A DNA stretch of 64,000 bases from Candidatus Latescibacterota bacterium (GCA_011772205.1 WVZY01000064.1:1-64000); one strand, 5' to 3'. Shown: positions 23,268-55,594, numbered from the stretch's first letter. Numbers and translations are program-made. Notes: generated by a model not told the origin, from the letters alone.

Positions 23268-25865
23268 ATGCTAACATCGCCGTCCATGAATCGCTGCACA
23301 ACACGTAAGCTATATTTATTGCTAATAGTCTCGATGCTCCTCATGGCGACTTCCTGCGCCAAACCTCCAATGCTGTACATGGAAATTAGCAAAAACTGGC
23401 GGTTTCGCAAGGCCGGGTCCGAAGAATGGCTACCTGCGTCCGTGCCCGGATGCGTCCATGCCGACTTGCTGGACCGCGGCCGGATCGAAGATCCGTTTTA
23501 TGGGGACAATGAAAAGCGCGTTCAGTGGATTGAATACGAGGATTGGGAATACCGGGCGACGTTCGATGTGAGCAGAGAATTTATGAAAAAAAAGAACGCT
23601 GAGATTCTTTTCGAGGGATTGGATACATACGCGGATGTCTACCTCAACGATGAGCTGGTTTTGTCATCGAATAATATGTTTTGCAAATGGGACATCGAGT
23701 GCAGCGATATCCTAAAACATGGCAAGAATACGCTCGAGGTGTATTTCCATTCACCGGTAAAACGCGTCGAGGCGGCATGGGACAGCATGGAATACCGGCT
23801 CCCAGGTGGGCCAAGAGTGCTCACGAGGAAGGCAGCCTATCAATATGGTTGGGATTGGGGGCCGAGGTTTCCAACGGTGGGAATTTGGCGTCCGGCCTAT
23901 CTGCGCGCCTGGGATCAAGCGAAAATAAATAACCTCCAGATCGTCCAACACTCTGGGAGTGATGAAAAAGCGGAGCTATCCGCCATTTTCGAAATCGAAT
24001 CTTCGATCGATGACCGAGTGACTCTTTCGTTATTCGACATGGACGGCAATCGGCTGCTCGGGAGGACCGAAGCGGCGCTCCGCCTCGGAGAGAATTCGGT
24101 CACTGTTGATTTTGTGATCAAAAATCCCCTCTTATGGTGGACCAATGGACTCGGGGAAGCGCATCTCTATAACCTGCTCGGCGAATTGAGAGTCGAAAAC
24201 AACGTCGTGTCCAGAATATCCGAACGCATCGGCGTACGCACGCTCGAGCTCGTCACCGATAAGGATTCTGCGGGGGAGCAGTTTTACTTCGAGCTGAATG
24301 GCATTCCTCTATTTATAAAAGGAGCCAATTACGTGCCACAGGACAACTTCCTTCCCCGGGTTACTTCGGCTCATTACGAAAAGCTGATCCGCAATGCCGT
24401 CGATGCAAACATGAATATGCTCCGGGTGTGGGGCGGCGGGATTTACGAAAACGATATCCTTTACGATCTCTGCGACGAGAACGGAATTCTCGTTTGGCAG
24501 GATTTCATGTTCGCCAATGCGATGTACCCGGATGACTCGCTCTTCTTGGAAAATGTCGAGCGCGAAGCAGCGCAGAACGTAATCCGCCTCCGAAATCATC
24601 CGTCACTCGCGCTCTGGTGCGGAAACAACGAAATCGACGAGGCCTGGCACAATTGGGGCTGGCCGGATCAATTTGGCTATTCCGCAGAAGACTCCTCGCG
24701 GATTTGGAACAACTACAAGCAGTTGTTCCACACGCTCCTCCCCGGCATCGTCGGCGAATACGATAATCGCAGGCCCTACTGGCCTTCCTCGCCGCAGTAC
24801 GGCCGGGGTGACGAACGGAGTCTTTACGAAGGGGACTCTCATTACTGGGGCGTCTGGCACGATGCCGAGCCATATGAAATCTTCAAGGAAAAAATAGGCA
24901 GGTTCATGAGCGAATACGGATTCCAATCGTTTCCTAGATTCGAAACTCTCGAATCATTCTCACGGCCGGAAAATTGGGAGATGGATTCGGAGGTGATGCT
25001 CTCTCACCAGAAGCACCCCAGAGGAAACCAGCTCATCAGAATGTACATGGAGAGAGATTACAACATTACGGACGACTTCGATGAGTTCGTTTATTTGAGT
25101 CAGGTGCTCCAGGCCGAAGTGGTCAAAACCGGTATCGAAGCGCACCGGCGAGCGAGACCGTATTGCATGGGTACGCTGTACTGGCAGCTGAACGACTGCT
25201 GGCCGGCGATATCCTGGTCCAGCGTCGGTTACTCCGGCAGATGGAAGGCTTTGCACTACTACGTCAAGAAAGCATACAACGACATCCTGGTATCTCCAAC
25301 TGTGGACAATGGAGTTTTGAGAATTTTCGTGATCTCTGATCGGTTGATTCCTGTGAATGGGATATTGAAGCTGGAACTCCTGGACTTCTCGGGTGAGAAG
25401 CTGTGGCAGAGAAGCATAGAGTCGATCATTCAACCGAACACGAGCAAATTGTGGTTCGAAGAAAAAGTGGAAACGCTTGTTGAGGATGAAGAGAAACGCA
25501 GCGCCGTGCTCGTTGCCGAAGTAGGGACAGAAGAAGGGCAGATGTCAAGAAACCTGCAATATTTTGTGCCTCCCAAAGATCTGAATCTGCCAAAAGCCAC
25601 GATTGCAAGGAAAATCAAGCGCTACAAGGATGGATATGTGATCACACTCACGTCGGACAAATTGGCCAAGAATCTGTTTCTCAGGCTCGATGATCCGGAA
25701 GGACACTTTTCGGATAATTATTTCGATTTGCTTCCCGGAGAAACCGTCGAAGTCCTTTTCAAAGTAAAAAAGAGAATCCGCAACCTCGATGAAAAGCTGA
25801 GAATCACTTCTCTCGCAGACACCTTCGATGGATCAGTCACAACCTTAAGCCGATCCGCCTATTGA
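23268..25865 (+). CDS. GH2 beta-mannosidase, lipoprotein
   Basis: An 865-residue glycoside hydrolase of family 2, predicted to remove beta-linked mannose from the ends of manno-oligosaccharides or glycoprotein cores. An N-terminal lipoprotein signal (LLLIVSMLLMATSC) anchors it in the envelope. The GH2 sandwich carries the mannosidase signature QYGWDWGPRFPTVGIW; the barrel has WGGGIYENDILYD, the acid/base Glu455 in WCGNNEID and the nucleophile Glu549 in SEYGFQSFP. Length fits the family. ATG at 23268 has a weak AGGG site; ATG at 23286 is an alternative with no better site. It is divergent from the response-regulator gene, sharing a 90-base promoter region. Confidence 0.93.
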   Translation: MLTSPSMNRCTTRKLYLLLIVSMLLMATSCAKPPMLYMEISKNWRFRKAGSEEWLPASVPGCVHADLLDRGRIEDPFYGDNEKRVQWIEYEDWEYRATFDVSREFMKKKNAEILFEGLDTYADVYLNDELVLSSNNMFCKWDIECSDILKHGKNTLEVYFHSPVKRVEAAWDSMEYRLPGGPRVLTRKAAYQYGWDWGPRFPTVGIWRPAYLRAWDQAKINNLQIVQHSGSDEKAELSAIFEIESSIDDRVTLSLFDMDGNRLLGRTEAALRLGENSVTVDFVIKNPLLWWTNGLGEAHLYNLLGELRVENNVVSRISERIGVRTLELVTDKDSAGEQFYFELNGIPLFIKGANYVPQDNFLPRVTSAHYEKLIRNAVDANMNMLRVWGGGIYENDILYDLCDENGILVWQDFMFANAMYPDDSLFLENVEREAAQNVIRLRNHPSLALWCGNNEIDEAWHNWGWPDQFGYSAEDSSRIWNNYKQLFHTLLPGIVGEYDNRRPYWPSSPQYGRGDERSLYEGDSHYWGVWHDAEPYEIFKEKIGRFMSEYGFQSFPRFETLESFSRPENWEMDSEVMLSHQKHPRGNQLIRMYMERDYNITDDFDEFVYLSQVLQAEVVKTGIEAHRRARPYCMGTLYWQLNDCWPAISWSSVGYSGRWKALHYYVKKAYNDILVSPTVDNGVLRIFVISDRLIPVNGILKLELLDFSGEKLWQRSIESIIQPNTSKLWFEEKVETLVEDEEKRSAVLVAEVGTEEGQMSRNLQYFVPPKDLNLPKATIARKIKRYKDGYVITLTSDKLAKNLFLRLDDPEGHFSDNYFDLLPGETVEVLFKVKKRIRNLDEKLRITSLADTFDGSVTTLSRSAY

Positions 25866-26407
25866 TACAGCGCCTTGACTTGCCCCCATCGCGTTTGTCT
25901 TACGGGCGTATCGCAGTCACAAGTCGCATCGGGATTGATAAAAGCAGCTCCACCGGTTGCGACAATAAGATTCGGCGGATCCGCGCAGTCTGCAACCAGA
26001 ACTCCTTGAGGAATCGCCGCTGGATCCGGTACAACCCTTATCATACTGCAGGACGGTGAATTGCAGCCGCAGTAAGTGATCGTCGTCAGATGGATTGGTG
26101 AAACGAGACATGTTCCATATGCGATCGTAATCCCAGTTTGTGGATCGCCGATAACCGTCGGAAATGGCGGGAGAGTGTAGCCAATCCAGGTCATACACGC
26201 CCCGTCTGCTTGTATTACCTTGAATTGAGAACCCGTCGCTCCAGTCGAATGCACATGCAACACGTGAACTGCCACCGTGCTGCCCGTATCGTACAGATTG
26301 CAGTCCAGCCCTTGGGTATCGGCAAACAAGCCGATGCTCCCAAGCTGGGCACCCGCCGCGCCTGCCACAGCCATGGAAAAAACAACCAGCAGCAGTGTCC
26401 TTTTCAT
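25859..26407 (-). CDS. Exported protein with short C-terminal WG..K.LY tail
   Basis: A 182-residue secreted protein. The signal peptide (LLLVVFSMAVAGAAGA) is followed by a beta-rich, cysteine-containing domain (for example LFADTQGLDCNLYDTG, CGCNSPSCSM), of a type seen among secreted proteins of candidate phyla but without a name known to me. The protein ends CDTPVRQTRWGQVKALYQ. The last 16 residues match the ends of two other secreted proteins in this window (39343-40152 and 54053-55594) at identical spacing. AGGAGG lies before the ATG. It converges on the beta-mannosidase gene with a seven-base overlap of the stop regions. Confidence 0.8.
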   Translation of the reverse strand: MKRTLLLVVFSMAVAGAAGAQLGSIGLFADTQGLDCNLYDTGSTVAVHVLHVHSTGATGSQFKVIQADGACMTWIGYTLPPFPTVIGDPQTGITIAYGTCLVSPIHLTTITYCGCNSPSCSMIRVVPDPAAIPQGVLVADCADPPNLIVATGGAAFINPDATCDCDTPVRQTRWGQVKALYQ

Positions 26408-26740
26408 ATCAACCTCCTTCGTCGAAGATCAGGTTGATAGCCAATTGTATACTTAATGATAACACTCTCAACACTCATCCTCAAGCTCAGCTGTAAATTA
26501 TTTATATAAAAGAGATTCTAGGGGCGGGGGCAAGAAGACCAGATTTGCTATAAAGGACGTGTATGCTTGGCGAGACATGTTTCTACCGAGAGCGGCGCAA
26601 GAGTGGCATGGCTTTCGAGCGGGGCGGAACGTCATCCCCCCCAATCGCTATATGAAACGCGGCCGCAAGTCGTCGTTGAATACATAATTCATGCAACCCT
26701 GTTTTTATCAATAAAATTTATAAAAGCTCAAAGCGCTAAC
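26408..26740. other. Intergenic region without recognisable gene
   Basis: About 330 bases between two minus-strand genes. AT-rich next to 26408, where the promoter of the exported protein should lie; a GC-rich patch near 26520. No gene, hairpin terminator or repeat was found. Confidence 0.5.
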
Positions 26741-27982
26741 TCAAAATGCCTCATCCAAAGACAAATAGACCCGAACGGTATTCTCACCTGCTGCAATGTC
26801 GAGCCTTGCCCGGATCCTATCCTCCAAGCCGGTTCTGAAGCGAATACCACCGCCCACCGTAGGCCTCATGAGACCAAATTCCAGTCTTCGTAACGTACGC
26901 GTAACACACGCCACACCTGCAAATCCTACCAGGCCAAAACGCCACCACACTTGGGCTCTGTACTCTCCTTGAAAGGCGAAAAGAACGCGATCGAGATAAC
27001 GCCCCTTCCGATAACCGCGCGAATGGGCGCGCCCGCCCAAGGCAGCCATTCGCCAGAATGGTGGGCTTCCCTTGGCCGCATAAACGAAAAACTGCGAAGC
27101 CAAAACATGTCCTGGCGCTGCGGAGAAATAGTTCTTCAGATCGATGTGATAGTTGTTGAAATCATGCTCGCTTCCGAGTTCATCGTCGAAGAATATTGCA
27201 AAAGCCTGATAGTAGCTGCCCGAAGTGGGCGAATGCTTACGGTCGCGGGTGTCCCAGTCCAGAAGAATGCCGGCACCGACAGTGTTTTTGTCGACAGTGG
27301 CACGAATTCGATCCGTATCGAGCAATCTGTTCGGTTCCACTTCGAGAAACTTAAAATGCTCGAACTCATACCGGACACCGATTTTTAAATGCGAAAAAAA
27401 CCTCCGGTAAAATTCGACATATGCACGTACTTGTTGGGGTTGATAGACCTCTTCATTGCTGTCAGGCGTGTCCGGACCGATTCCATAGTAGCGCAGCGCG
27501 AGGTTATTGAAGTTGACTTTCGATCTCAGATAATATCTCCCTTGCCCCCACTTGAGATTCAAAACCGATTCCACCTCACTCTGACCTTTCGTGGTAATTC
27601 GGCCTTTCAACCTGACATCCGATCGATCCAGCGAGGCCTCTCCGTTCGGCCATCGAAACGGGCGAATGATCTGCCCCCCTACGCCAAATCCCCGTTCAGT
27701 AGTGTAGTAGACTTTCGGCAGATAAACCAACCCCCAGGCACTCAGTTTGGGCCGCAGAGACTTCCAGCCCTTGGAGCTGGAGGCAGTATCGACCCGAGTG
27801 CTCTCAGGCCCTGCCGCATTTGCCACAACGGACCGGGCGCCACCGCACAGAAACAGCTGCAGCAGGCAGAGGCAGAATAAAAGCCCCAGGGAGTTTTCGA
27901 GTTTTGCATATCTGTATCGGGTAGTTTTCAACTTTCCAGTGCTGAGAAACGCCTCAAGAACGAACTCCGTTGACAGCATCAT
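26741..27982 (-). CDS. Omp85/BamA-like outer-membrane barrel (surface antigen D15 type)
   Basis: A 413-residue predicted outer-membrane protein. A hydrophobic signal segment lies at about 30-45 after an unusually long polar lead, so the true start may be further in. The mature part shows the end region of Omp85-type barrels: amphipathic strands (RYYLRSKVNFNNLALRYYGI), the lid-loop region GGRAHSRGYRKGRYLDR with the characteristic RGY, and the final GGGIRFRT...RIRARLDIA strands. No POTRA domains precede the barrel, so it resembles stand-alone D15-like barrels rather than BamA itself. Some such barrels secrete patatin-like or other partners; none is adjacent. Confidence 0.78.
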   Translation of the reverse strand: MMLSTEFVLEAFLSTGKLKTTRYRYAKLENSLGLLFCLCLLQLFLCGGARSVVANAAGPESTRVDTASSSKGWKSLRPKLSAWGLVYLPKVYYTTERGFGVGGQIIRPFRWPNGEASLDRSDVRLKGRITTKGQSEVESVLNLKWGQGRYYLRSKVNFNNLALRYYGIGPDTPDSNEEVYQPQQVRAYVEFYRRFFSHLKIGVRYEFEHFKFLEVEPNRLLDTDRIRATVDKNTVGAGILLDWDTRDRKHSPTSGSYYQAFAIFFDDELGSEHDFNNYHIDLKNYFSAAPGHVLASQFFVYAAKGSPPFWRMAALGGRAHSRGYRKGRYLDRVLFAFQGEYRAQVWWRFGLVGFAGVACVTRTLRRLEFGLMRPTVGGGIRFRTGLEDRIRARLDIAAGENTVRVYLSLDEAF

Positions 27983-28406
27983 ACAATATCAGGGGACCGC
28001 AGCCTAGAGGCGAATGCTCTGGCTGACAACAGACATGAGTATGTGTTCATGCTTGTTAGAGCGTGCAGCGGCAGAGAAAAGTGGTTTTTAATGTTCGATT
28101 TGCGGTACCGAATTCCACCGTGCTCAGAGTTGCAGACAATATACGAAAACAACCAGTTAAGTCAAGGAACGTCTTTGCGGAAGATAACCGACCGGATTGA
28201 CCAACGAGACATTAAAATGAAGAAGATGTGATCAATTCCTCCATTCCTTGCCTCACAATTCTTCTCGGCGGCACCGGCGATTGAACCTATCCAATTTACT
28301 CTTGACACCCGTCTAGGCGGCGAATACGGTTAACACAATCATAGTTGCATACCAACGGCTCAAAAGTGGCCCGCTCCGGAATTTTCGAACCGAAAGGAGG
28401 AGGCCC
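27983..28406. other. Intergenic region upstream of the LpoB-type operon
   Basis: About 420 bases between divergent genes, without a convincing gene. It holds one plausible promoter toward the operon (28302-28330), described separately. A short ORF at 28043-28231 has no ribosome site. Confidence 0.5.
28302..28330 (+). promoter_or_regulatory. Possible sigma-70-type promoter of the lipoprotein operon
   Basis: TTGACA at 28302-28307 is a perfect -35 hexamer; 17 bases later stands TACGGT (28325-28330), a poor -10. It points at the GTG start at 28407. Position and spacing are right, but the -10 match is only three of six. Confidence 0.35.
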
Positions 28407-29126
28407 GTGATAAAGGGAAACCGGAAGTATATCGGAATCTGTTCTTTAATTGTTCTCTTCGCCGTTGCAGTCATACTGCTGTGCCCGCGTTCCACTTCCG
28501 CCGACAAGCCCATCAAACTCGGCATCTTCGTATTCGAAAACCTCGAAGGTATTCACACCCAATCGTCCACCTTCGGAACCAGCCTCGGTTCCCAACTGAT
28601 GCCGATGCTCGAGAAGGTCCGCGTCGAGGATTCTGTGCCGCTGCAATCGAACGAAACGGTTCGAATTCTCGATGAACTCACGAAAGACAGAAAGGTGGTC
28701 ATGACCACCCTGCACGCGGTTTTCAGAAACGGTGTCATCGACTATCCGGCCGTTGTCTTTGCGGACGATGCGGTCAAGTTCATCGACCTTACTTGGAAAG
28801 TCGACGATGACAAGACGATGGAATTGGCCAAAGAAACCGGCTTGAGTCACTGCTTGATAGGGACCTGCCAAGGCATCGCCACGGCGCCACACGAAGAATC
28901 GGCGGCCGGGAGGCGGGGACTGACTGCCGTGACCGCCTCGGTGAATGTCCGGCTGCACAACATTTCGAGCGGCGAGGCAGAGTGGATGAATACGTATCGA
29001 CGCGTCGTTTCACATACGGACCCGAGACTGGCTTTCGAGCAGGCCGTCGAGATGGTCGCTGAAGATATCGCCGAAGATCTCAAGGGATTTTTCGAACCTA
29101 AAAAAGGAATCGAACGAAAAGATTAA
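28407..29126 (+). CDS. Exported protein heading the LpoB-type operon
   Basis: A 239-residue periplasmic protein. The start is GTG at 28407, set by AAAGGAGG six bases upstream. A signal peptide (IGICSLIVLFAVAVILL) is followed by a fold with the pattern LGIFVFENLEG, then GLSHCLIGTCQGIA and TASVNVRLHNISSGEAEW, which resembles the LpoB/CsgG type of periplasmic domain (a name-like strand, then a test for the gene product by a ...G...I-T/G strand, then a strand carrying [TE]W). I would place it as a distant relative of the next gene, not as a known family. It begins a run of five lipoprotein or exported genes spaced by a few bases. Confidence 0.7.
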   Translation: MIKGNRKYIGICSLIVLFAVAVILLCPRSTSADKPIKLGIFVFENLEGIHTQSSTFGTSLGSQLMPMLEKVRVEDSVPLQSNETVRILDELTKDRKVVMTTLHAVFRNGVIDYPAVVFADDAVKFIDLTWKVDDDKTMELAKETGLSHCLIGTCQGIATAPHEESAAGRRGLTAVTASVNVRLHNISSGEAEWMNTYRRVVSHTDPRLAFEQAVEMVAEDIAEDLKGFFEPKKGIERKD

Positions 29127-29137
29127 GGAGCATCGAG

Positions 29138-29737
29138 ATGAATAACCGAATCGTATGGATATGCATTCTGGTGTTGGCATCACCCATTGTATTTGGCTGC
29201 GCAACGGGTCGGAGCGTTTATGTAGATCCTTCGACCGTCGACGAGAAAGGCGCTCAATTCGGTGACACGGACATCAAACTCATGTCTGAGGAAATAGTCT
29301 CGGAGCTTCTTCAAGCGCCGTTCATCGAGCGCGTTGAAAAGCCGGCCACCATTTCGATTATCGGCATCGAGAACAAAACGAGCGAATTCATCAACACCGA
29401 TGACATATCCGACAAAATCATGATTGCGCTCATCAACAGCGGTTCGGGGGTATTCGAATTTGTCGACCGCGAAATGCTCGAAGAAACCATGGCGGAATTC
29501 GAGCTGGGCGCAAGCGGGATTGTTTCAACGGAGGAAGCTACCAGGCTCGGCCGCGCCGCGGGTGTGAACTTCCTGATGACGGGTTCGCTTTCCTCCATCA
29601 CAAAAGTCGATCGAAGAGAAGATCAGCGATTTTACAGGCTCTCGATGCGGCTGGTAGATGTGGAGAGAAATACCGTTACATGGGTCCATGAAAAAGAAAT
29701 TCGCAAGATCGCCAGAAAAGGCGTTTTAAAATGGTGA
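29138..29737 (+). CDS. LpoB-family lipoprotein (penicillin-binding-protein activator type)
   Basis: A 199-residue lipoprotein (lipobox VFGC) matching the LpoB family throughout: ISIIGIENKTSEFINTDDIS, the FEFVDREMLEETMAEFELG core, GRAAGVNFLMTGSLSS and LVDVERNTVTWVHEKEIRK. In Enterobacteria LpoB reaches through the periplasm to activate the peptidoglycan synthase PBP1b. Here the protein has almost no disordered linker after the lipid anchor, so a shorter reach or a different partner is likely. The gene starts 11 bases after the previous one and overlaps the following start (ATGGTGA). Neighbouring YcfL-like and TPR lipoproteins repeat an arrangement known around lpoB in gamma-proteobacteria. Confidence 0.85.
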   Translation: MNNRIVWICILVLASPIVFGCATGRSVYVDPSTVDEKGAQFGDTDIKLMSEEIVSELLQAPFIERVEKPATISIIGIENKTSEFINTDDISDKIMIALINSGSGVFEFVDREMLEETMAEFELGASGIVSTEEATRLGRAAGVNFLMTGSLSSITKVDRREDQRFYRLSMRLVDVERNTVTWVHEKEIRKIARKGVLKW

Positions 29738-34144: not shown

Positions 34145-34168
34145 GGCGATCAACTCCAGGCTAAGACG

Positions 34169-39342: not shown

Positions 39343-40152
39343 CTATTTGTATAGCTGTTTGATAGCTCCCCAGGTCTTGCCCTCTTCCGGGGTTCCTGAT
39401 GTTCTCAGGAAACTCGGCGCACTCAACGGGCCATCGGGGCAGGTCTCATTGTAGTCGACCAGCTCGTCCTTGATGTTCCCGCCCTCGGTCTTGATCAATC
39501 CATTGGGCTTACTGCCAATGGGATAGGATGCAAGATAGGCGTCAGCGGCAGCAATGTCACCGATAATGGAACCGTCTCCTCCGGTCAGCAGATTGAACTT
39601 AGCCGCAATCAGATGCTGAGCCAGGATGATCGTTATATCACCCCTCGTAGGCATATCGAAGATGGCCATCAGCTGAGCTTTGTTGTACAGTACCCCGCCA
39701 AGCGTCAGCTCATCCACCGGCCATTCATCCGGACGATTTTTCCAGAAGCCCGGAGTGCCACAGCCCCCGTTCCCATCACACGGGCAGTTGAACGGAACGG
39801 AGAATTGCCTGTAGTTATAGCCGTACAGATTGAAATAGAACAGACCTTCTGCCACGTAATCACCGCATAGCTCCATGCCCCAAGGCTGAGAAATGGCAAA
39901 CGGATGCAGGCCTGTCGAGCCGGAAATGGGTATGGATCCAGTAAACGAGGCCACGATGGTACTATTTTGAATGAGATCCACTTCATAAAACAGGTCGAAC
40001 GAATAGGTGCCATCCAGGTAAATGGATCCGGATACCTGCCAGCCTTCGCAATTCGCGCCGGGAGTGAAATCCTGGAAATAACAGGCCCATGCAACGCCGA
40101 TGAAAGCAATCACGAGTACGGGTATCGTCAGAAACAGCAATTTTTTGTTCAT
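39343..40152 (-). CDS. Exported GFWK-domain protein with WG..K.LY tail
   Basis: A 269-residue secreted protein. After a signal peptide (LLFLTIPVLVIAFIGVAWA), residues about 25-125 form a beta domain. Then comes CGTPGFWKNRPDEWP, the start of a domain widespread in secreted proteins (GFWKxxPxxWP ... LAQHLIAAKFNLLTG), which here runs to about 235. Cysteines frame its start (CPCDGNGGCG). The end is SGTPEEGKTWGAIKQLYK. The final 16 residues match the C-terminal tails of two other secreted proteins in the window at the same spacing. The gene is monocistronic, with a GGGG-type ribosome site. Confidence 0.82.
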   Translation of the reverse strand: MNKKLLFLTIPVLVIAFIGVAWACYFQDFTPGANCEGWQVSGSIYLDGTYSFDLFYEVDLIQNSTIVASFTGSIPISGSTGLHPFAISQPWGMELCGDYVAEGLFYFNLYGYNYRQFSVPFNCPCDGNGGCGTPGFWKNRPDEWPVDELTLGGVLYNKAQLMAIFDMPTRGDITIILAQHLIAAKFNLLTGGDGSIIGDIAAADAYLASYPIGSKPNGLIKTEGGNIKDELVDYNETCPDGPLSAPSFLRTSGTPEEGKTWGAIKQLYK

Positions 40153-40514: not shown

Positions 40515-43103
40515 CTATTTCAGGAACACTAATTTTTTCGTATCCGCGAAGTGTTTCGTCACAAGTCTGCAGAAATACACACCGCTCGACACTGGATCAC
40601 CCGCGTCGCTTCGGCCGTCCCATGTCGCCGTATAGCCTTCGATCCTCGGACTTTGGACTTCATTCACTAAAATCCTCACCAGCTGGCCGGCGACGTTATA
40701 AATCTTCAATGTTACGCGAGAACGTTCCTTGATCGTGTATTTGATCGTCGTCGTTGGATTGAACGGATTCGGGTAGTTCTGGGTGAGACTGTTTCTGAAC
40801 TGAGGAGATTGCTCGACGGATACTGGATCGTCTACATCATTGTTGAACCACTGGATTATTTTGGTCAGATGATGCACACGATCTGGAATACTATCAGGCA
40901 ATTCGTCCCGGATGCTGTGGTAACTAAAGCCAGAAAGTATGACGCGCAGCGGATTTCCCTGAGCGTTGGAAGTATCCTTTGCGATGACCGCTTGTTGGTC
41001 CGGCAACCCCGTGCCATTGTATGTCATCTCACAGCTCACATTCCCTGTGGCCTCTAGCACGTCGAAATCTCCGTCGTAAGCGATCAATGTATCTGGATTT
41101 CCATCGTGGAAAAATCCCACCTGTGACGTAGCTTCTGCCACCACCAGTGGATGGGTGCCGTGGGCCATCATCCGGTGATCGCCGTGAGTCAGGTTGAAGT
41201 TCATGTAATTGCTTCTAAAGCTATCTGCACTCGCACCTGCGAGAGTTACCCATTCCTCGGCGAGATCGCCGCCGGAGAGATAGATACCACATCCTTCTGG
41301 ATGGTCATGAAGATCGGCAAAAGTGAACAGCATGAGCCAGTCATCCACATCGCAAGGATTTCCGGTGCCATCGCCGACCGTTCCAGAGTCGATGTTACCC
41401 GAGTTCCATATGATCTTGCGGTAGCTCGGGATCAGCTGATTGGATACATCAACCACCCGACCACCCGGACCGCCTCCCTCGATCGAAGACGAGCCGCGGA
41501 CATCATAGCGGTCAGGCGCAATCCCGATCATTTCGAACGCTGTGCCAATAAGTTGTTGGCCATCTTCACTGTTAAAGTTGTGGACATAGAGAATATCCGT
41601 AGTGCCGGTGGGCAAAATCTGGAATTCCATCGGATAGCACTGGACCTCATTAAGATTGCCTGTTGCTCCAGTATACTGGCTGTAGTACGTTTCTTCGCCT
41701 TTCGTGTTCTTGGCTGAGAAAAAGAAGAGAACCGTATCCGGCGGTGTGAAGAGGTTGTCGTTGAGATCTACGCAGTATGAATTCGCTGCTTCGTAGAAGC
41801 GGTCGGGATATAAAAAGCAATAATCCATCCGGAATTTATACCATTTTAAATACCGCAGATTGGCTGTCTCAGTCCCCCACAACGTGGAATAACACTCCAG
41901 CGAGTCCACAAGCGGCCAGCGGAGAGGATTTGTGGCAGGTGGTGGATACTCGTTCAACAGATCGCGTTCCTGCATATCAAGAGGATCATAAAGCTGAGTG
42001 CTGCCATTCAAGCATGTAACAAAGCAATAAACCGCCGGGCCACTCAGCGTATCTGCCGGATTGTGGTATGCGATACGAGCGGTGTCACCCACGCTGATGA
42101 CAGCTGAATCACCAGGTATCACTCTGGTGTCTCCGTTTGGCGTGATATCATCCCCCGCATCTGCCCTCCCCGTCCCAGTCGTTGTACCATCAGATGAAAA
42201 AGCATCCTGGAATAGGTCGATGTCGCGGACGTCCCAAAGCAAGCTTCCCCTCGTGTCTCCAAGCCCGAGAACACAGCCAGGGTACTTCCGTCCCAGCTCG
42301 GACAAATACACCGAGTCTGAATCAACTATATCGATGAGATAGTGTATGTCATATAGGTATTGCCAATGTCCGCTTGCATATTCCGTATCATAGAAAGCGA
42401 CGGCAAAAAGCCAGCCGGTAACCTCGTCGTGCCAAATATCAGAAATAAATTTTCCTTCGTAGTTTAGTGTATCTATTTTTGTGATTTGTGCAGTATTCAC
42501 ATCAACTTCGTATAAACACTTGTCTATGCAGGAAACAGTAAGCAGCTTGTCTAAACCAGCGTGATAATCCATCGCTTGAAATGCCCCTGGCTCACCCATT
42601 GTACCGACTTCGGTAGCCTGGCCTGTGACTTTGTCGATTGTGTACAGCCGCAAGTAGTCGCTGCCATAGAGAACATCAGTTTTTTCATTATATGCTAGCT
42701 CCTTAACACTTTCGCCGCACTCCCCCACTAAGGTTGCTTTCTGCATATAAGGATTGATCCGGTAAAGAAATCCTTGTACATCCGCGTAGACAGCAAAGAA
42801 CTCGTTCGGATTGTCCCCATCAGTCGCTCCCATCCACGGTTGTGCAGTATCGAACTCCTTAGTCACCATCGTGCAGAAAATGACATCATGAACTGCACTG
42901 GTCGATTGACCAACACCATAACACCGTCGATATGACATCGCTGCGCGGCCAAAACCGCTGCTATCCATCATGCCTGTTTCAACATCTTTGAATCGTCCCC
43001 TTTCCTTTGCCAGCGGATTTGATGGATGGGGATCAACAATGTTCAGTGAAACCAAGGTGGTCATGACCAACGAAATCCCTATTATCAAAGGTCGCCTTTT
43101 CAT
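40515..43103 (-). CDS. Large secreted protein with FlgD-Ig C-terminal sorting domain
   Basis: An 862-residue exported protein. The signal region is at 1-20. Residues about 85-330 repeat beta-propeller-like strands (LYGSDYLRLYTIDKVTG, LTVSCIDKCLYEVDVNTA, GWLFAVAFYD) of a non-specified propeller or lectin type. The middle (about 330-770) holds extracellular beta domains with no signature I recognise. The end is a full FlgD-Ig domain (NYPNPFNPTTTIKYTI, LKIYNVAGQLVRILV, WDGRSDAGDPVSSGVYF, KKLVFLK) used in FCB bacteria as a secretion and surface-attachment signal. AGGAGG lies before the ATG. Function unknown; a surface adhesin or sensor of polymers would fit. Confidence 0.82.
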   Translation of the reverse strand: MKRRPLIIGISLVMTTLVSLNIVDPHPSNPLAKERGRFKDVETGMMDSSGFGRAAMSYRRCYGVGQSTSAVHDVIFCTMVTKEFDTAQPWMGATDGDNPNEFFAVYADVQGFLYRINPYMQKATLVGECGESVKELAYNEKTDVLYGSDYLRLYTIDKVTGQATEVGTMGEPGAFQAMDYHAGLDKLLTVSCIDKCLYEVDVNTAQITKIDTLNYEGKFISDIWHDEVTGWLFAVAFYDTEYASGHWQYLYDIHYLIDIVDSDSVYLSELGRKYPGCVLGLGDTRGSLLWDVRDIDLFQDAFSSDGTTTGTGRADAGDDITPNGDTRVIPGDSAVISVGDTARIAYHNPADTLSGPAVYCFVTCLNGSTQLYDPLDMQERDLLNEYPPPATNPLRWPLVDSLECYSTLWGTETANLRYLKWYKFRMDYCFLYPDRFYEAANSYCVDLNDNLFTPPDTVLFFFSAKNTKGEETYYSQYTGATGNLNEVQCYPMEFQILPTGTTDILYVHNFNSEDGQQLIGTAFEMIGIAPDRYDVRGSSSIEGGGPGGRVVDVSNQLIPSYRKIIWNSGNIDSGTVGDGTGNPCDVDDWLMLFTFADLHDHPEGCGIYLSGGDLAEEWVTLAGASADSFRSNYMNFNLTHGDHRMMAHGTHPLVVAEATSQVGFFHDGNPDTLIAYDGDFDVLEATGNVSCEMTYNGTGLPDQQAVIAKDTSNAQGNPLRVILSGFSYHSIRDELPDSIPDRVHHLTKIIQWFNNDVDDPVSVEQSPQFRNSLTQNYPNPFNPTTTIKYTIKERSRVTLKIYNVAGQLVRILVNEVQSPRIEGYTATWDGRSDAGDPVSSGVYFCRLVTKHFADTKKLVFLK

Positions 43104-47998: not shown

Positions 47999-48136
47999 GC
48001 ATGCTCAAAACCGGCTAACGAGCATGAGGCGCGCCGCTAAGACATTGGTCCGATCTTTTGGCTTCAACGAGCCGCCCAAGCTGCGTGCAGGTTGTCTCGA
48101 CCGTTGTGGTGTGCCACATCCCCGGCTTTGCGGGGA

Positions 48137-49228
48137 TTACTCGAATCGAGAACTCGCCCCGACGGACGAAGTTACTTGAGTTCGACGAGATTTGGAGCGC
48201 GCCGCACTCGCCCGACGAACGCCCTTTACCTCGAGCGAAGCGGCGAGCCACTTTTGCGAGACATACTTAGCGGACCAGGCGACCGAGAAGCTGCCAACCT
48301 GGGCGGGCACATTGTTCCCGTCGAACCCCATGTAGAATTTCACTTGCGTGCAATGCGAAGGCATGGACACGATACGATACGCCGTGAAAAACTGGATCAG
48401 GCCCGTGGGAGTTGTCTCGAGCTTGCGGCAGTAGCGCCACATCCGTTCGGTATCTTCGTAAAGACACTCCTCGGCATACTCGCGAATCCTTTGGTTCATG
48501 AAGCGGCGTTCCCTGGACGCCGGAAGCTCTATGTCCCTCTCATGAGCATGCAAAATCACGCCGCCAATCGAGCACTGCTTGAGTGCTTCAACGTCCTCGC
48601 GTGCCATCGCGCGGAGCGCCTTGGCCAGGACCGGTCTCGGATCAACGGATGCCTCCCAGTCCATGTTCAAGGACACCAGTTTACTATAGGACAGGTTCAT
48701 GAGGATGGGGATCGTCCGGTCGTAATCGAGTGCAGACGTGTCGATGCGGAGATAATCCAACTTCCAAGCATCGCCATCTCTCCGGAACCTCCATGTGGTG
48801 TGATGTACAGGAGTACCGGATACGGTGTGATCTTGCCTAAAATCATACCACGCCTGGATAATGAGTTCCCGCACGTGTATGTCGGCGGTCACACGGTCTA
48901 TCTGGAGCGGTGTCATTACGATCCCCGATAGATAGTTGCCATAGTCGCGCCGGTGACGCTGGATGGCGCTCCAGGCCGTTTCCCCGGCGCCCGTTCTGGC
49001 AAACAAGCTCTTGAATCGTTTCGAATCGCTTTTCAGCACCGCCTCGTGAGCGCCGCGCATGAGCGCAACGAGTTCTTCACCGTCGTGCTCATCGACGATT
49101 GCGCGGGGCGGTTTGACACCATTCGTACGATTATCATCCCGATTGCCAAAAAAGCTCAGGAACTGCCACCCCAGTATGCCAACCCAGAAGACCGTTCCAA
49201 TTGCTGAAATGATCTGCCTACCGCTCAT
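48137..49228 (-). CDS. Membrane-anchored protein of unknown function
   Basis: A 363-residue protein. One transmembrane helix lies near the N-terminus (IISAIGTVFWVGILGWQFL, about 5-24). The rest appears to carry two mixed alpha/beta domains, the first with an NTF2-like layout (LMRGAHEAVLKSDSKRF, then a helix and strands ending TTWRFRRDGDAWKLDYLR), the second similar but less clear. The basic Ser/Arg tail (residues after about 330) may be disordered. The start is ATG at 49228, with CAGGAG seven bases upstream; an upstream extension is unsupported. It stands alone, convergent with no identifiable partner. Function unknown. Confidence 0.66.
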   Translation of the reverse strand: MSGRQIISAIGTVFWVGILGWQFLSFFGNRDDNRTNGVKPPRAIVDEHDGEELVALMRGAHEAVLKSDSKRFKSLFARTGAGETAWSAIQRHRRDYGNYLSGIVMTPLQIDRVTADIHVRELIIQAWYDFRQDHTVSGTPVHHTTWRFRRDGDAWKLDYLRIDTSALDYDRTIPILMNLSYSKLVSLNMDWEASVDPRPVLAKALRAMAREDVEALKQCSIGGVILHAHERDIELPASRERRFMNQRIREYAEECLYEDTERMWRYCRKLETTPTGLIQFFTAYRIVSMPSHCTQVKFYMGFDGNNVPAQVGSFSVAWSAKYVSQKWLAASLEVKGVRRASAARSKSRRTQVTSSVGASSRFE

Positions 49229-49626
49229 CGCGCCACTCCTGCCGGATCGCTGCGCATTGTCGCGGGCCTCGCCGTCGCAATTTCGCTTACGCCAGCAACT
49301 TGGCAGATTTTTCGCAAAATCCGGGCCAGAACGAAATCGCAGGAGTACATTTGGCACGTGCTGGGAGTTGTCCTTTCGCTGGGGGTTTTCCAGCTAGACC
49401 GCTTCAGTTTTATGGAGCTGCAAGCGAATCAATGACAGATGGAGTTTTTGCAGTGATCTCGAAGCTCGGAATCCAAAAATTCGGCTTCATGGAATGGACC
49501 ACCCTGCGGAATGGGAGGCGGAGTCGGGCGGCCAGCATATGTTCCTCCATATCTCGGGCTTAATATGGTCCTTCCCCATATCGACGCAATGCTGCGTCTG
49601 CGTTGCGCTCCCTCCCTCGATTGGTT
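49229..49626. other. Intergenic region without recognisable gene
   Basis: About 400 bases between two minus-strand genes. No supported ORF, hairpin terminator or repeat was found. The promoter of the membrane-anchored protein should lie near 49229-49330. Confidence 0.45.
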
Positions 49627-50865
49627 TCAGCGATAGGATATTCGGGCAAACGTCGCCTTGTGCCCTCGTCTCATGATGTCTTTGGCATCATTCGAGCATC
49701 GAACAGTTTTATAATAAATAACGTCTCCAATCCGTTCGGAATGATCCAGCCGTTCTTCCTTCTTTAGAAAGTAGGCTTCCATCGTATCCATGGGACGCGA
49801 AGTGCCGTCGCTCTCGTACTTGATCGTAATGTTCGTGCCGGAATCCAGCACCTTATGAGCGTTCTCCGTCCAATCGAAATCCTCTCTGCCGAGATCCGGG
49901 TTGATGCGCAGATGAGCCGCCAGAGACACACCGGGAATTCCAGACTCCGCCAGCTCTCTCGAACACTGAACAAACATCTCGGGAGACTGGCCGTTGCCGA
50001 GATTGATCTCGTATATGGCGGTGGTACCATCATCACGAAGATATTCCTTCATGATATTCATCAGCATCCGCAACTGGATCGCATTCTGGGTCGACAACAG
50101 CATGGATACTTTGAAAGACAGGTTCTTGATATCCCGGGCATAATAACAAGCCGCCACAATCGTGGACCAGCTGGGGTTGAGGAAAACATTCCCGCCCGTG
50201 CGTACCGCCGCCCGCGTAATCCCATCGAGATAAACCAGGTGATTGTTGTTCGCGACTTCAACGCCTCCGAGATTCCCATAGGGAGTGCCCATATTCTTGA
50301 GTATCAGCGCCCTCATCCCGGATGCAGGTTCCCACGTATCGAACTTCTCCCCGGTAACTTTCTCCAGGCGGGAGTATGTTTCGTTGCTAAGAGGAGTACC
50401 GACCAGGTTCGTATTGCAGAACATCGAGGCACTCATGATATTCTCTGCCATGGCCAGAGTGGTCAGTAACTCGCCGTTCAAGACATAATCTTCTGTAAGC
50501 GCCATGACCGAAATAAATTCGGTAGGAACCAGTGTTTCCCCGTCTTCCGCTATCCGTTTCATTCCTCTCAATGTCACCGGCGCCCCCTGCCAGCCAGAAA
50601 CCTGCGTGGTGGCCACGCCGGCCTTCATGATCTCTATGTTTTCTTTTTCGATGAAGTCCTCGACTTTGGTAAAAGACTTCGCATGAGCTTCCGCCTGCTC
50701 TAGCATTTCGCCAAATCCCTTTTCCCCCGCCACTTCTTTTCTTTTCTTGTAGTCACGCATTTCCTTTATGGAGTTCATGATCTCGGATGCACCGCCATAG
50801 GACTCCTTCAGTGCATCCATCTGTTCCATGTCCTTCTTGCTCAAAAAAGGATAGTGCAGACCCAT
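49627..50865 (-). CDS. Large conserved-looking soluble protein, family not recognised
   Basis: A 412-residue cytosolic protein beginning MGLHYPFLSKKDMEQM at ATG 50865, which AAGGAGG precedes by five bases (an in-frame start 11 codons upstream is unlikely). Residues about 15-90 are a charged helix; the remainder looks like an enzyme fold, with stretches such as TTQVSGWQGAPVTLRGM, VALTEDYVLNGELLTTLAM, MGTPYGNLGGVEVANNNHL and YEINLGNGQSPEMFVQCS. I do not recognise a catalytic motif. A TIM-barrel cofactor enzyme (cobalamin- or radical-dependent mutase kind) is one thought, but nothing here proves it. It is monocistronic, between secreted-protein genes, and its compact composition argues for a real, conserved function. 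Confidence 0.72.
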   Translation of the reverse strand: MGLHYPFLSKKDMEQMDALKESYGGASEIMNSIKEMRDYKKRKEVAGEKGFGEMLEQAEAHAKSFTKVEDFIEKENIEIMKAGVATTQVSGWQGAPVTLRGMKRIAEDGETLVPTEFISVMALTEDYVLNGELLTTLAMAENIMSASMFCNTNLVGTPLSNETYSRLEKVTGEKFDTWEPASGMRALILKNMGTPYGNLGGVEVANNNHLVYLDGITRAAVRTGGNVFLNPSWSTIVAACYYARDIKNLSFKVSMLLSTQNAIQLRMLMNIMKEYLRDDGTTAIYEINLGNGQSPEMFVQCSRELAESGIPGVSLAAHLRINPDLGREDFDWTENAHKVLDSGTNITIKYESDGTSRPMDTMEAYFLKKEERLDHSERIGDVIYYKTVRCSNDAKDIMRRGHKATFARISYR

Positions 50866-50948
50866 TTTCCCCTCCTTAGCGGCTGCTTTCTTTCTCATCG
50901 TACAGATGATCTAGCATCAGAATCCGATCAAGCATCTCGGCTTGCTGC

Positions 50949-53834
50949 TCACCTCAGAAGCACCATCTTCCTTGTCAGCGCCTTGTTTCCTGCTTTCAAA
51001 CGATAGAAGTACACCCCCGAACTCGCTGGATTCCCTTTGGCGTCCTTTCCGTCCCAGACGATTTCTCTATATCCTTCAGGGAGTACTTCGTTCACGAGAG
51101 TCTTGATCAGCTTACCCTCGAGATTGAGGATGGACAGGTTGGTCATGGCTTCTTGAGGCAGAGTAAATGAAATCGTTGTCGTCGGATTGAAGGGATTGGG
51201 GTAGTTTTGGCGGAGAGCGAATTCATACGCTAGGACTTCGACATCGACCTCGTGAGATCTTACCTCGCTACCGTCCGCTTTGACGGCACCTAGAGTATAA
51301 TAATAGGTGTGTCCGGCTTCGAAATTCATATCGTCATAGCTTCGATCGCCTTCAGGAATCAATCCAAGCCGATTGATGAGCTTTTCATACCCCTTGCTTT
51401 CATCCCTTCTATAAATGTTAAATCCAGCGATGGCTTCGTCCGCTGAAACGTCCCAAGTGAGTCTTATTGTTGAGCCAGCCCATTTCGCGTCGAAACGCTT
51501 AACAAGAATGGCAACCACGCTCTTTTTAAAGCGTCTCGTTTCACCTAAAAGGCCCCACTCCTTCGAATCGGCGGCATAGGCTCGCCACCAGTAAGTCCCG
51601 TCGGCCAAAGAAGATGGGGTCCAGGCGGTCTGACCAACACCCTCTGGAACGCTGTCCACGTATGCGGCCAGGTTTGTACACATGGAATCGGCGTGGATGC
51701 GAAAACCGTAGGTCAGGGGATCCATGCCATCCGGGTCGGTGCTATTGGCGACGGTGAGAACCGGATCGGTGTTGACTTCTTCGCCCGGAGCGGGAGATAT
51801 GAGAACCGGTGGTGGCGGGGTTTGGTTGCTCCGGTCGGGCCCTTCTAGGAAGACGTCATCGATGTACCAACCATCTTCCGTGAACAGCTCGTCGGCAAGC
51901 AGTAGAAAGCGGATCTGAACCGATTGCCCAGCCCAATTATTCAGAGGCAACTCGACTTGGGTCCAGCTGGTGTTGTACCCGGAATAGATAGCCAGGGTGG
52001 TCCATAGCCCATTTCCAGCAGAGGCCTGCACACACCCGAAGTCGTAGCCCTCCTCGATCTCGTACTTGTGCCAGAAGGAAAGGTGAGTTGCCGGAACTCC
52101 CATGGTTGAAGTCGCCGAGTACTGGGTATCATCCACATAATCATCACCTGGCGAATCGGTCAGTGACTGGGTTGGGGAATGGCTCGTGGAGTTGGTCGTA
52201 TTCCACGTACCCGTCGTCGTCCATGCAGCGATGCCACTCTCGAAATCGTCGCTGAACAGGACGATCGGTTCGTCCACGACGAAATGTAGCGCATAATCCA
52301 GGGGAGGAGCGTCCTGCTCGCGAACGGTGACATTGAGTGTGCTGAGATGCGCGCTTGGGCATGCAGGATCAACTGCGACCGGAAACGGGCTAGAGGTGAA
52401 GTCAACGCCTGCGCGTGCGGGTATAGTTCCAATGTCACGGTATGCCTCACCTAGCTGAATGTAGGGATCATCACTAGAAAGCCTGACGCTTACTCCGAAA
52501 GCATCGGCGGTGACACCCTGGTTGGCCAATGTAAAGGAGAATCCTGCGCTCTCGGCTGGGTCCGCCCGGCCGTTTCCGTCCCCGCCGACCACGACCACAT
52601 CGCTCGCTTCTATGAAAGCGGCAGCGGCCCGAATCAGATAGATCGACGGCCAGAGGTTTTCTTGGAATATCGGTATACGCCTCTCCTCTGGAGGCCAAAA
52701 ACCATCATAGGAATAGCCGAGCTCGTTGCACAATGAAAAAATCTTGCCATGCTCTCCCTGGGCGCCGTAGGCCCAGTCGTGAGCGCAGCCGACGACTGGA
52801 TAAAGGGTGGTGCAGGCCTGTCCGGGCTCGTAGTGGTTATGACGCGTCATGAGGCCGGCCATGTGCTCGAAGATGTGCGCATCGGGCGTTGGATCGGGTG
52901 TGTAGCCCCAAGGATAGAGAGTGAAGCCGCCAAAAGAGTGAAACGTCTGGTGCGTGACAAACTGATGCGCGTTAATGAGACTCATCATCGCTTGGACTTC
53001 CGGTTCGCTGCCCGCAAAGGGACCTCGATAAGTAGCAACGCAGGAGTCACCGATGCTGCCGGGAGCTCCCCACATGTAGGGATAATTTCGGTTGAGATCG
53101 ACACCGTAGCAGCCACCGCCGTTGTCACGGCGGTTCTTCCGCCACATGCCGCCTCCGCCGGGATCGGTCGTCTCGTTATAGACAAGCCCGTCAGGATTGA
53201 CGATAGGAACGAAGTAGATTTCTCTGCTGTCGAGTAGGTAGGTGACCTCCGGATTGCTGCCATAGTTCTGCGCCAGATGCCCCGCCAGTAGCAATGTAGT
53301 CTCGGAAGCCATGATCTCGCGGCCGTGATGGAGGCCGTCGAACAGAATCTCCGGCTCGCCCTCGTCGATGTCCGGGTTGTCGGAGAGTCGGAAGCACCAC
53401 AAATCCCGCCCCTCATGGCTTTGCCCCAACGACCATTTTTCGCTTATGACGTTTGGGTAGAGCGACCGGAGGCTGTCCATGAAAGCGATCGCTTCGGAAT
53501 ATGTGTGGTAAGCTCCGAAGCCGGGACCGACGACCCGCGCGGCGTAGTGAGCTTTCAAGTCCGATTGGATGATTTTGAGCCGGCCTCCGGAATCGCGCAA
53601 AATGCCGAGGTCTCTCTCCCCGGCTACGATGTCGACATAGGTTCTCCGCCTGCAGACCGAGGCGATGTCCAGTTCCGGGTGAGCGTGCAAGAACTCCAGG
53701 TCTTTGGGAGAGTCGATGTAGTATCGAACGAGGTACAGCTGTTGCGCGCTGGCGATATCGAAATGAAGCAGGATCGAGGCAACGGCCAGAATCGCCAAGG
53801 TGGGCAGAATATAATGGCGGCCGAAATGCTTCAT
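50949..53834 (-). CDS. Secreted M14 zinc carboxypeptidase with FlgD-Ig sorting domain
   Basis: A 961-residue exported peptidase. Signal peptide (LAILAVASILLHFDIASA). The M14 domain (about 100-420) has the zinc ligands His170 and Glu173 in LHHGREIMAS, VDLNRNYPYMWG, the third ligand His in THQTFHSFGG and the catalytic Glu in LCNELG. It should trim C-terminal residues from extracellular peptides or wall material. Two or three beta-sandwich domains follow (one with WHKYEIEEGYDFG and FLEGPDRSN, a jelly-roll type), then an FnIII-like and a FlgD-Ig domain (NYPNPFNPTTTISFTL, WDGKDAKGNPASSGVYF, RKMVLLR). The start is ATG 53834 with GGAG upstream. It follows the beta-helix gene region divergently. Confidence 0.92.
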   Translation of the reverse strand: MKHFGRHYILPTLAILAVASILLHFDIASAQQLYLVRYYIDSPKDLEFLHAHPELDIASVCRRRTYVDIVAGERDLGILRDSGGRLKIIQSDLKAHYAARVVGPGFGAYHTYSEAIAFMDSLRSLYPNVISEKWSLGQSHEGRDLWCFRLSDNPDIDEGEPEILFDGLHHGREIMASETTLLLAGHLAQNYGSNPEVTYLLDSREIYFVPIVNPDGLVYNETTDPGGGGMWRKNRRDNGGGCYGVDLNRNYPYMWGAPGSIGDSCVATYRGPFAGSEPEVQAMMSLINAHQFVTHQTFHSFGGFTLYPWGYTPDPTPDAHIFEHMAGLMTRHNHYEPGQACTTLYPVVGCAHDWAYGAQGEHGKIFSLCNELGYSYDGFWPPEERRIPIFQENLWPSIYLIRAAAAFIEASDVVVVGGDGNGRADPAESAGFSFTLANQGVTADAFGVSVRLSSDDPYIQLGEAYRDIGTIPARAGVDFTSSPFPVAVDPACPSAHLSTLNVTVREQDAPPLDYALHFVVDEPIVLFSDDFESGIAAWTTTGTWNTTNSTSHSPTQSLTDSPGDDYVDDTQYSATSTMGVPATHLSFWHKYEIEEGYDFGCVQASAGNGLWTTLAIYSGYNTSWTQVELPLNNWAGQSVQIRFLLLADELFTEDGWYIDDVFLEGPDRSNQTPPPPVLISPAPGEEVNTDPVLTVANSTDPDGMDPLTYGFRIHADSMCTNLAAYVDSVPEGVGQTAWTPSSLADGTYWWRAYAADSKEWGLLGETRRFKKSVVAILVKRFDAKWAGSTIRLTWDVSADEAIAGFNIYRRDESKGYEKLINRLGLIPEGDRSYDDMNFEAGHTYYYTLGAVKADGSEVRSHEVDVEVLAYEFALRQNYPNPFNPTTTISFTLPQEAMTNLSILNLEGKLIKTLVNEVLPEGYREIVWDGKDAKGNPASSGVYFYRLKAGNKALTRKMVLLR

Positions 53835-53975
53835 AAGGTCTCCGTTCAATCTAACGGAGGTCCTCAAATCCGAAGCGGAGGCGTGAGCTTAGAATACTCT
53901 GGTATACACCAATAGATTACTAAAACTCGCCGAATCTGTCAATAAAGCCTGGCTCCACTAGCTTCGACTTGGCCC

Positions 53976-54004
53976 TTGTGATTGAACCTGCCCAATGCTA
54001 TACT
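53976..54004 (+). promoter_or_regulatory. Promoter of the beta-helix gene
   Basis: TTGTGA (53976-53981) and TATACT (53999-54004) are separated by exactly 17 bases, a good sigma-70-type pair, 49 bases before the ATG at 54053. The matches are four of six and five of six. Confidence 0.6.
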
Positions 54005-54052
54005 ACATCAAGTTGTCAAGTACACGGTTAAGGCCTAATCGAGGATGTCATC

Positions 54053-55594
54053 ATGATGAAATCCGCCTATTTTCTCACTTTGGCCGCCGCCTTCCTCTCC
54101 ACTTCTACCGTATCACCTGTAACCGCTAAGACATGGCACGTGCCGGGCGATGCGCCTACGATAAAAGGAGGAATCAATTTGGCCTCTGCCGGCGACACGG
54201 TGCTTGTAGCCTGCGGAACTTACTACGAGTACAGCATTGCAATGAAATCCGGTGTTTGCCTTCGGAGCGAAACGGGAGAGGCCACTTGCGTCACTATCGA
54301 TGCACAACAACAGGCCAGGGTAATGCGATGCCGGGGTGTGAGTAGCACGACCCGGATCGAGGGATTCACGATCAGGGGGGGACTTACCGCTGATGAGGGC
54401 GGAGGATTGTACTGCCTTGACTTTTCTTCCCCAACCGTTGCCAACTGCATTTTTGAAGGTGACTCAGCTTTCTTCGGCGGCGGTGTCCGCTGCTATAACA
54501 ACTCTTCCCCCCGGTTCATCAACTGCACTTTTACAGGCAACTCTGCTGATACAGGCGGCGGGATTTCGTGTCAAGGCAACTCCTCTCCGACGCTCACCGA
54601 CTGTTCGCTCTCCGACAACTCGGCCAGCAGCAGCGGAGGCGGAATGAATTGCTACCATGCTTGCTCCCTCACACTCACTAACTGCACTTTCTCCAACAAT
54701 CGGGCTGTTTATAGGGGCGCCGGGATAGGAATCTCCCGCGAGTGCACCGCTACGCTCACTGATTGCACGTTCTCAGATAATTCTTCCAGTACAGGCGCTG
54801 GGATGTTTGCCTCTTTTGACGGGTCAGCTGTCCTCACAAATTGCACATTCACCAACAACTCCGGTAGCCAAGGCACTGGGATGTTTCTCGGCGGAAACGC
54901 CTCTGCTACGCTCAGTAACTGCTCTTTCACCGGTAACTCGGCTAGCAGCCGCGGCAGCGGGATAAGATTGGACGAAGCTGCTACCGTCACGCTCACTAGC
55001 TGCTCTTTCACCGGCAACTCATCCGGGATGAACGGTGCGATTTACTTGGCGAGCACTTCCCATTTAACCGCTGATGATACGGAATTCAGAAACAATTCGG
55101 GCGGCGAAGGGGTTGGAATGTCCCTCCGCGATAATGCAACAGCCATTCTAGCCAACTGCACGTTCGTCAACAACTCCGGCAGCCAAGGCGGTGGAATGTT
55201 TCTCAGCGATAACACTGCCGCTACGCTCACTCACTGCTCATTCGCCAGGAACTGGGCTACACTAGCCGGAGGTGGAATGGTGCTATCCGACGCTTCCGCT
55301 ACGCTCATCAACTGCTCGCTGACCGACAACTTTGCCTACCAAGGCGGTGGGATTGCTTTGTGGTATGCTGCCCATATGACCGCCGATACCACAGCATTCG
55401 AGGGAAATCAATGTAGAGGTTTTAACATGGGAGCGCATGGCTTTGTAGGAGGCGCCAGCGAAGCAGTGCTCACCTGTTGCGTCCCTGACCTCAGCGGTTT
55501 CGCTGGTGACGGGACCATCATTCTGAACAATGAGGGGTGCATCACCCCAGTCGAGCCAATTTCCTGGGGCAGACTGAAAGCTTTGTACCAATAA
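54053..55594 (+). CDS. Secreted right-handed beta-helix protein with PMP-like repeats and WG..K.LY tail
   Basis: A 513-residue exported protein. Signal peptide (FLTLAAAFLSTSTVSPVTA), then a right-handed parallel beta-helix built from about 13 turns of the pattern L-T-[ND]-C-[ST]-F-x2-N-S-x4-G-G-G (for example LTDCTFSDNSSSTGAGMF, LANCTFVNNSGSQGGGMF). The FxxN..GG arrangement resembles chlamydial polymorphic-membrane-protein repeats and pectate-lyase-like stacks. It probably binds or cuts polysaccharide, or acts as a surface adhesin; no catalytic residues can be assigned. The C-terminus is CITPVEPISWGRLKALYQ, the same 16-residue tail as in 25859-26407 and 39343-40152. A clear promoter lies upstream. 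It converges with the giant minus-strand gene. Confidence 0.85.
   Translation: MMKSAYFLTLAAAFLSTSTVSPVTAKTWHVPGDAPTIKGGINLASAGDTVLVACGTYYEYSIAMKSGVCLRSETGEATCVTIDAQQQARVMRCRGVSSTTRIEGFTIRGGLTADEGGGLYCLDFSSPTVANCIFEGDSAFFGGGVRCYNNSSPRFINCTFTGNSADTGGGISCQGNSSPTLTDCSLSDNSASSSGGGMNCYHACSLTLTNCTFSNNRAVYRGAGIGISRECTATLTDCTFSDNSSSTGAGMFASFDGSAVLTNCTFTNNSGSQGTGMFLGGNASATLSNCSFTGNSASSRGSGIRLDEAATVTLTSCSFTGNSSGMNGAIYLASTSHLTADDTEFRNNSGGEGVGMSLRDNATAILANCTFVNNSGSQGGGMFLSDNTAATLTHCSFARNWATLAGGGMVLSDASATLINCSLTDNFAYQGGGIALWYAAHMTADTTAFEGNQCRGFNMGAHGFVGGASEAVLTCCVPDLSGFAGDGTIILNNEGCITPVEPISWGRLKALYQ

Follow-up and report, generated by a model that had tools for sequence, protein, structure and literature searches.

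The C-terminal sorting signals of a bacterium reveal the proteins that it displays and the machinery used for each. In PEP-CTERM/exosortase, as in GlyGly-CTERM/rhombosortase and MYXO-CTERM/myxosortase, a short C-terminal homology recurs in each genome on dozens of unrelated proteins with signal peptides, the system is lineage-restricted, and the gene for the reader is unlinked. The C-terminal domains (CTDs) of the type IX secretion system (T9SS), of type A (TIGR04183, PF18962) or type B (TIGR04131), likewise close Sec-exported proteins, and they fold into beta-sheets 40-80 or more residues long (PMC11969387, PMC12618676). Here, we describe a shorter element, a C-terminal tail of ~16 residues shared by three exported proteins encoded in a 64,000-nucleotide stretch of DNA from a Candidatus Latescibacterota bacterium (GCA_011772205.1 WVZY01000064.1:1-64000; "the window" hereafter means this whole stretch). 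The tail resembles PEP-CTERM-type signals in its breadth of unrelated carriers, its restriction to a lineage and the lack of a linked reader gene, and it resembles T9SS CTDs in its C-terminal position on Sec-exported proteins of the same genomes, its interchangeability with them on homologous bodies and its usually basic last residue. On balance, and with somewhat better than even confidence, we read the tail as a modular C-terminal targeting signal, namely a docking helix that would be read by an envelope receptor.

The three window proteins have little else in common. P0001, an exported protein of 182 residues (25859-26407, minus strand) that belongs to a paralogous family of the window's genome, ends in TPVRQTRWGQVKALYQ (25862-25909, minus strand; profile E=4e-5). 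P0002, an exported protein of 269 residues (39343-40152, minus strand), ends in TPEEGKTWGAIKQLYK (39346-39393, minus strand; profile E=6e-5), and neither it nor P0001 has a Pfam or NCBIfam match in family library scans. P0003 is an exported right-handed beta-helix protein of 513 residues (PF13229; 54053-55594, plus strand) that ends in TPVEPISWGRLKALYQ (55544-55591, plus strand; profile E=2e-5). All three tails are in frame, with a stop codon directly after each, exactly where the original prediction had placed them. The degenerate DNA pattern W-G-x-[IVLM]-K-x-L-Y-x-stop matches the window three times, precisely at these tails, and has no match in 100 dinucleotide shuffles of the window (chance expectation, 0). 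The N-terminus of each protein is a plausible Sec signal peptide, and no FlgD_ig or T9SS CTD profile matches any of them in the family library scans, again in keeping with the prediction.

Genome-wide, tails were counted with the strict DNA-level pattern given above, for which the reversed pattern was the control, and with a 17-column profile of the tail at a confident threshold of E<0.01. The sample comprised 80 genomes of the window's phylum (class Krumholzibacteriia), of which a 38-genome class subset was used for several tests. The window's own 4.13-Mb genome holds 15-16 strict matches versus none for the reversed pattern, and ~43 tails by profile at E<0.01. The strict pattern is present in 33 of the 38 class genomes and in 67 of the 80 phylum genomes, versus 0 of 80 for the reversed control; together with the window shuffles, this rules out chance similarity, as had been anticipated. 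In 18 low-count class genomes, the profile finds 4-21 tails each; these include all 13 strict-negative genomes, so the tail is found in every class genome examined, and no tail-free class genome is left to serve as a gene-loss control. When 84,980 species genomes were scanned, a collection in which ~11 chance matches would be expected by our own estimate assuming uniform base composition, the 80 matches listed included 36 from Eisenbacteria, 10 from Krumholzibacteriota/Krumholzibacteriia and 9 from others. In a Coatesbacteria genome (bin961), at least five complete genes for signal-peptide proteins, NHL propellers among them, end in the tail, and a 7.1-Mb genome labelled Planctomycetota, with tails on one 3.4-kb contig only, serves as a negative control. 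The tail is a feature of Krumholzibacteriota and Eisenbacteria that occurs sporadically in neighbouring phyla.

The great majority of the proteins that carry the tail appear to be exported. By a simple hydrophobicity and charge heuristic, rather than SignalP, a signal-peptide-like N-terminus is found in 128 of 139 closed tailed open reading frames (ORFs) versus 122 of 483 neighbouring ORFs (25%), and in 27 of the 31 tailed proteins of the window's genome. Both the tail as a sequence feature and its link with export can be regarded as secure, and the enrichment at the C-termini of exported proteins, genome- and class-wide, is the outcome on which the original prediction had staked itself. With signal peptide and tail removed, 128 of these proteins fall into 67 families that are unrelated by blastp. 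Among the bodies that can be recognised are choice-of-anchor J and V, DNRLRE, thioester (TED)/TQXA, cohesin and CHRD domains, NHL propellers and beta-helices, along with MXAN_6652-like proteins (a MYXO-CTERM family) and PepA-like and ScyF-like proteins (PEP-CTERM families). Judging by NCBIfam naming, members of many of these body families bear other sorting signals elsewhere, PEP-CTERM, LPXTG and MYXO-CTERM among them, an argument for the tail taking that role here. Among 71 diverse tail proteins, no T9SS CTD or FlgD_ig match appears in the families listed (25 of 31 for Pfam and all 25 for NCBIfam), and no model in either library matches the tail itself. The alternative raised at the outset, that the tail is the last strand of a shared folded domain, is ruled out, given that the 67 families share the tail only and that it is unpacked in both AlphaFold models obtained.

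The homologues of P0003 differ in how they end. Among 77 such proteins from the class and from Eisenbacteria, classified with a regular expression and then hand-corrected by eye in eight cases, the tail closes 48 and a FlgD-Ig/T9SS-type end closes 22, with neither in 7 and both in none. In several of the tail-free homologues, the stop codon sits at the point where the tail would start. The two kinds of ending interchange on homologous bodies; a quick maximum-likelihood tree gives at least 11 switches between them by parsimony, although its branches are long and weakly supported, and only 2-3 label changes are required by those branches that do have good support. The same division is visible in the window itself, where three large proteins with FlgD_ig/Por_Secre_tail ends (40515-43103, 50949-53867 and 55682-63904) lie beside the three tailed ones. 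One short element, present on many unrelated exported proteins and swapping with other sorting signals, is what characterises C-terminal sorting signals in general, and these sequence comparisons argue strongly for a sorting role. Gain and loss on homologous bodies, along with the presence of the tail on tandem paralogues, might also be expected if the tail had no targeting role and were a mobile sequence cassette, or the last structural element of a single domain that spreads. Such an origin is scarcely credible for a peptide that is found on 67 unrelated bodies, is strongly associated with export, is unpacked in models and is conserved as protein while its codons vary freely.

An alignment of 167 distinct tails gives the consensus V-P-V-E-x-[TS]-[TS]-W-G-x-[IVL]-K-[AS]-L-Y-R. 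The frequencies of W, G, K, L and Y (and of R for most loci) follow by construction from the search pattern, in which these residues were fixed, as does the T/S before W in loci from the 84,980-genome scan, although the latter also holds in most loci from other searches; the upstream P-V-E preference was not imposed. Relative to the motif first proposed, the core [T/S]-W-G-x-[I/V/L]-K-[A/S]-L-Y stands, whereas the T-P pair is a preference only, with P in ~52% of tails at that position. The last residue is not fixed either, as LYTD, LYQE and LYNK endings are common in the window's own family. Occurrences found with a stop-free pattern are essentially never internal, with 35 of 36 ending no more than 7 residues after Y, and the figure for all loci, most of them found by the stop-containing pattern, is 223 of 224. 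Direct abutment on the stop codon, as originally described, is true of the three window tails but not as a rule, since 0 to 7 residues (usually 1 or 2) may follow Y. The C-terminal position and the variability of the last one or two residues would also suit a turnover or quality-control tag, that is, a C-terminal degron for a periplasmic PDZ or tail-specific protease. This seems improbable, however, for an element that is encoded in the genome as part of dozens of apparently functional proteins and retained across the class; moreover, such degrons are usually shorter and are read at the last residues, whereas the tail tolerates up to 7 extra.

Structurally, the tail appears to consist of a flexible linker and a short helix. 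On a helical plot, W, I, L and Y fall on one face, with K and R on the other, and the helical moment (0.51) differs modestly from that of shuffled sequences (0.375, sd 0.18); net charge is +2 for the helix and -0.8 for the linker. In the AlphaFold model of P0003, the beta-helix has a confidence score (pLDDT) above 90 across most of residues 30-300, a low-confidence stretch comprising the poorly covered end of the body and the linker starts at residue 438, and residues 505-512 of the tail form an isolated, unpacked helix with low pLDDT. The model of a second tailed family has only a helical turn (residues 244-246), also unpacked and of low confidence. The layout is like that of encapsulin and microcompartment cargo-loading peptides, in which a short amphipathic helix on a flexible C-terminal linker, carried by unrelated cargo, docks in a groove of the shell protein. 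Such cargo stays in the cytoplasm, whereas tailed proteins have signal peptides. Alternatively, the tail may be a retention or anchoring peptide, an amphipathic basic helix that binds the outer membrane, a surface glycan, the S-layer or a periplasmic scaffold, and is no secretion signal at all. An aromatic/basic amphipathic helix with an acidic flexible linker, the choice-of-anchor bodies, and a position at the very end, free of any folded domain, are all consistent with this idea. Nonetheless, nine residues are short for stable membrane anchoring alone, and the strictness with which W, G, K and Y are conserved points to a specific groove on a protein more than to generic membrane binding, leaving the anchoring peptide unlikely, if by no means far-fetched.

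In the mechanism that we propose for a targeting signal, tailed proteins would reach the periplasm via Sec, by means of their signal peptides. The tail, in which a flexible P-V-E-x-[TS] linker of slightly acidic character leads into a nine-residue amphipathic basic helix (WGx[IV]Kx-LYR), would stay exposed and dock in a groove of an envelope receptor, by which the protein would be either passed across the outer membrane or cell surface or held there. Its part would be that played by the folded FlgD-Ig/T9SS domain on other proteins of the cell. The T9SS is the first place to look for such a receptor. By its gene content, the window's organism has a T9SS; SprA is found in 38 of 38 class genomes and in 11 of 13 other tail genomes, the two exceptions of which look like contamination, and PorV-family proteins are found in all 16 genomes tested, with 7-17 matches per genome, the window's included. 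These numbers suggest an expanded set of T9SS shuttles, and in Flavobacterium johnsoniae distinct shuttles read distinct C-terminal signals (PMC12618676). A conserved cluster (G000:C8:168500-182500 in the window's genome, and loci L322-L333 and L335 in addition to this one, L321) encodes a C25 peptidase and a PorV-family protein along with two small outer-membrane-like proteins, an NHL-propeller lipoprotein, a POTRA/Omp85 protein and a large protein (1146 residues in one case, ~1100-1500 in all) in which a segment of 70 residues is SprA-like and no Pfam family is matched. The make-up of the cluster suggests T9SS attachment, with the large protein as an unusual component and an Omp85 member included. 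Both the cluster and the tail are class-wide, so their co-distribution cannot decide the cluster's role.

It is tempting to suggest, as a specific version of the targeting signal, that the tail represents a third class of T9SS signal, a very short one, read by SprA with a dedicated PorV-family shuttle, after which a C25 sortase would remove it or it would be kept as an anchor. The nearly constant presence of the T9SS core, the expanded PorV family, the swapping of tail and T9SS-type ends and the F. johnsoniae precedent all favour this proposal. On the other side, the tail has no sequence or structural likeness to type A or B domains, having no GxY motif or profile match and being unpacked and probably helical, an SprA-positive Zixibacteria genome is essentially tail-free, and no Bacteroidota title is found among the 80 matches listed in the 84,980-genome scan. 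We put this third signal class a little short of an even chance, and give the same tentative weight to a T9SS link as such, in which one of the 7-17 PorV-family proteins, acting with SprA, would be the receptor and is our first suspect. A comparable standing, plausible though not the expected outcome, is accorded to an undescribed envelope sorting pathway of Krumholzibacteriota and Eisenbacteria, in which the exposed amphipathic helix would be the signal and a new kind of receptor would read it independently of exosortases and of known T9SS recognition.

The tail could instead be the substrate of an exosortase-, rhombosortase- or CPBP-like processing enzyme, and an exosortase is present in the window's genome. 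In PEP-CTERM signals, however, a hydrophobic transmembrane helix and then a basic cluster come after the signature motif, whereas the tail has no transmembrane helix or other hydrophobic stretch there and no invariant processing residue. Nor does it have the three-part organisation reported for LPXTG and MYXO-CTERM (PMC11980579), and the logo of the 167 tails has neither the motif nor the helix of LPXTG sortase substrates, so that the initial view of the tail as distinct from PEP-CTERM, LPXTG and known T9SS domains is borne out. Exosortase (PF09721) is above cut-off in only 17 of the 38 class genomes, and is missing from some tail-rich, near-complete ones, such as G010, G015 and G030, a distribution that rules out exosortase as the reader; rhombosortase and CPBP enzymes were not searched. 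Overall, an enzyme of this type is very improbable.

Several points weigh against a targeting signal read by a receptor. The search for a co-distributed partner, suggested by the original prediction, turned up SprA in every class genome, which is weak evidence given that SprA is widespread in related phyla, and no dedicated receptor or protease for the tail was identified. When 483 neighbouring ORFs were clustered, no conserved partner of tailed genes emerged except other secreted proteins, which end in FlgD-Ig-type domains. The Zixibacteria genome has a strong SprA and 16 PorV-family matches and a single tail, at a contig edge, indicating that a T9SS alone is insufficient for the tail. Known T9SS signals, as folded beta-sheets of at least 40 residues (PMC11969387), are unlike it. 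The tail helix is a prediction only, AlphaFold confidence being low there; the heuristic for signal peptides and the poorly supported beta-helix tree count on the same side.

Should the tail prove to be a sorting signal, two phyla known almost only from metagenomes would be using it on many exported proteins. Its profile would annotate many hypothetical proteins at once and provides a substrate list for a receptor search, and the tail offers a test of whether type IX machinery can be addressed by a signal that is not a folded domain. Provided that the tail works by itself, a tag of 16 residues for surface targeting would be of use in the laboratory as well. No paper describing such a tail in these phyla was found in the part of the literature searched, which is weak evidence of novelty.

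Some additional observations concern individual genomes and genes. Two SprA-negative genomes, recorded as Kerfeldbacteria (L093) and Planctomycetota SJ778 (L110), have tails on single short contigs only, probably through assembly contamination. Genomes G039, G040 and G047 (L058, L061 and L108), recorded as Latescibacterota, Fibrobacter sp. and Gemmatimonas sp., have identical tail DNA, and the protein ends at L058 and L108 are identical as well; these records probably belong to close relatives and bear unreliable organism names. In the window, the gene for an Omp85-superfamily protein of 413 residues (26741-27982, minus strand) shares the strand of P0001 and lies immediately upstream of it, and it was not found to be a conserved neighbour of other tailed genes. 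The window's genome has two exosortase-family matches (G000:C11:17330-18085 and G000:C64:171100-171516), and a PEP-CTERM-like system may coexist there with the tail and the T9SS. Finally, 77 of 150 tailed proteins have a cysteine at a distance of 16-22 residues from their C-terminus, versus ~13-29% in other seven-residue windows further upstream; this enrichment just before the linker may reflect a disulphide that closes the body, or a modified residue.

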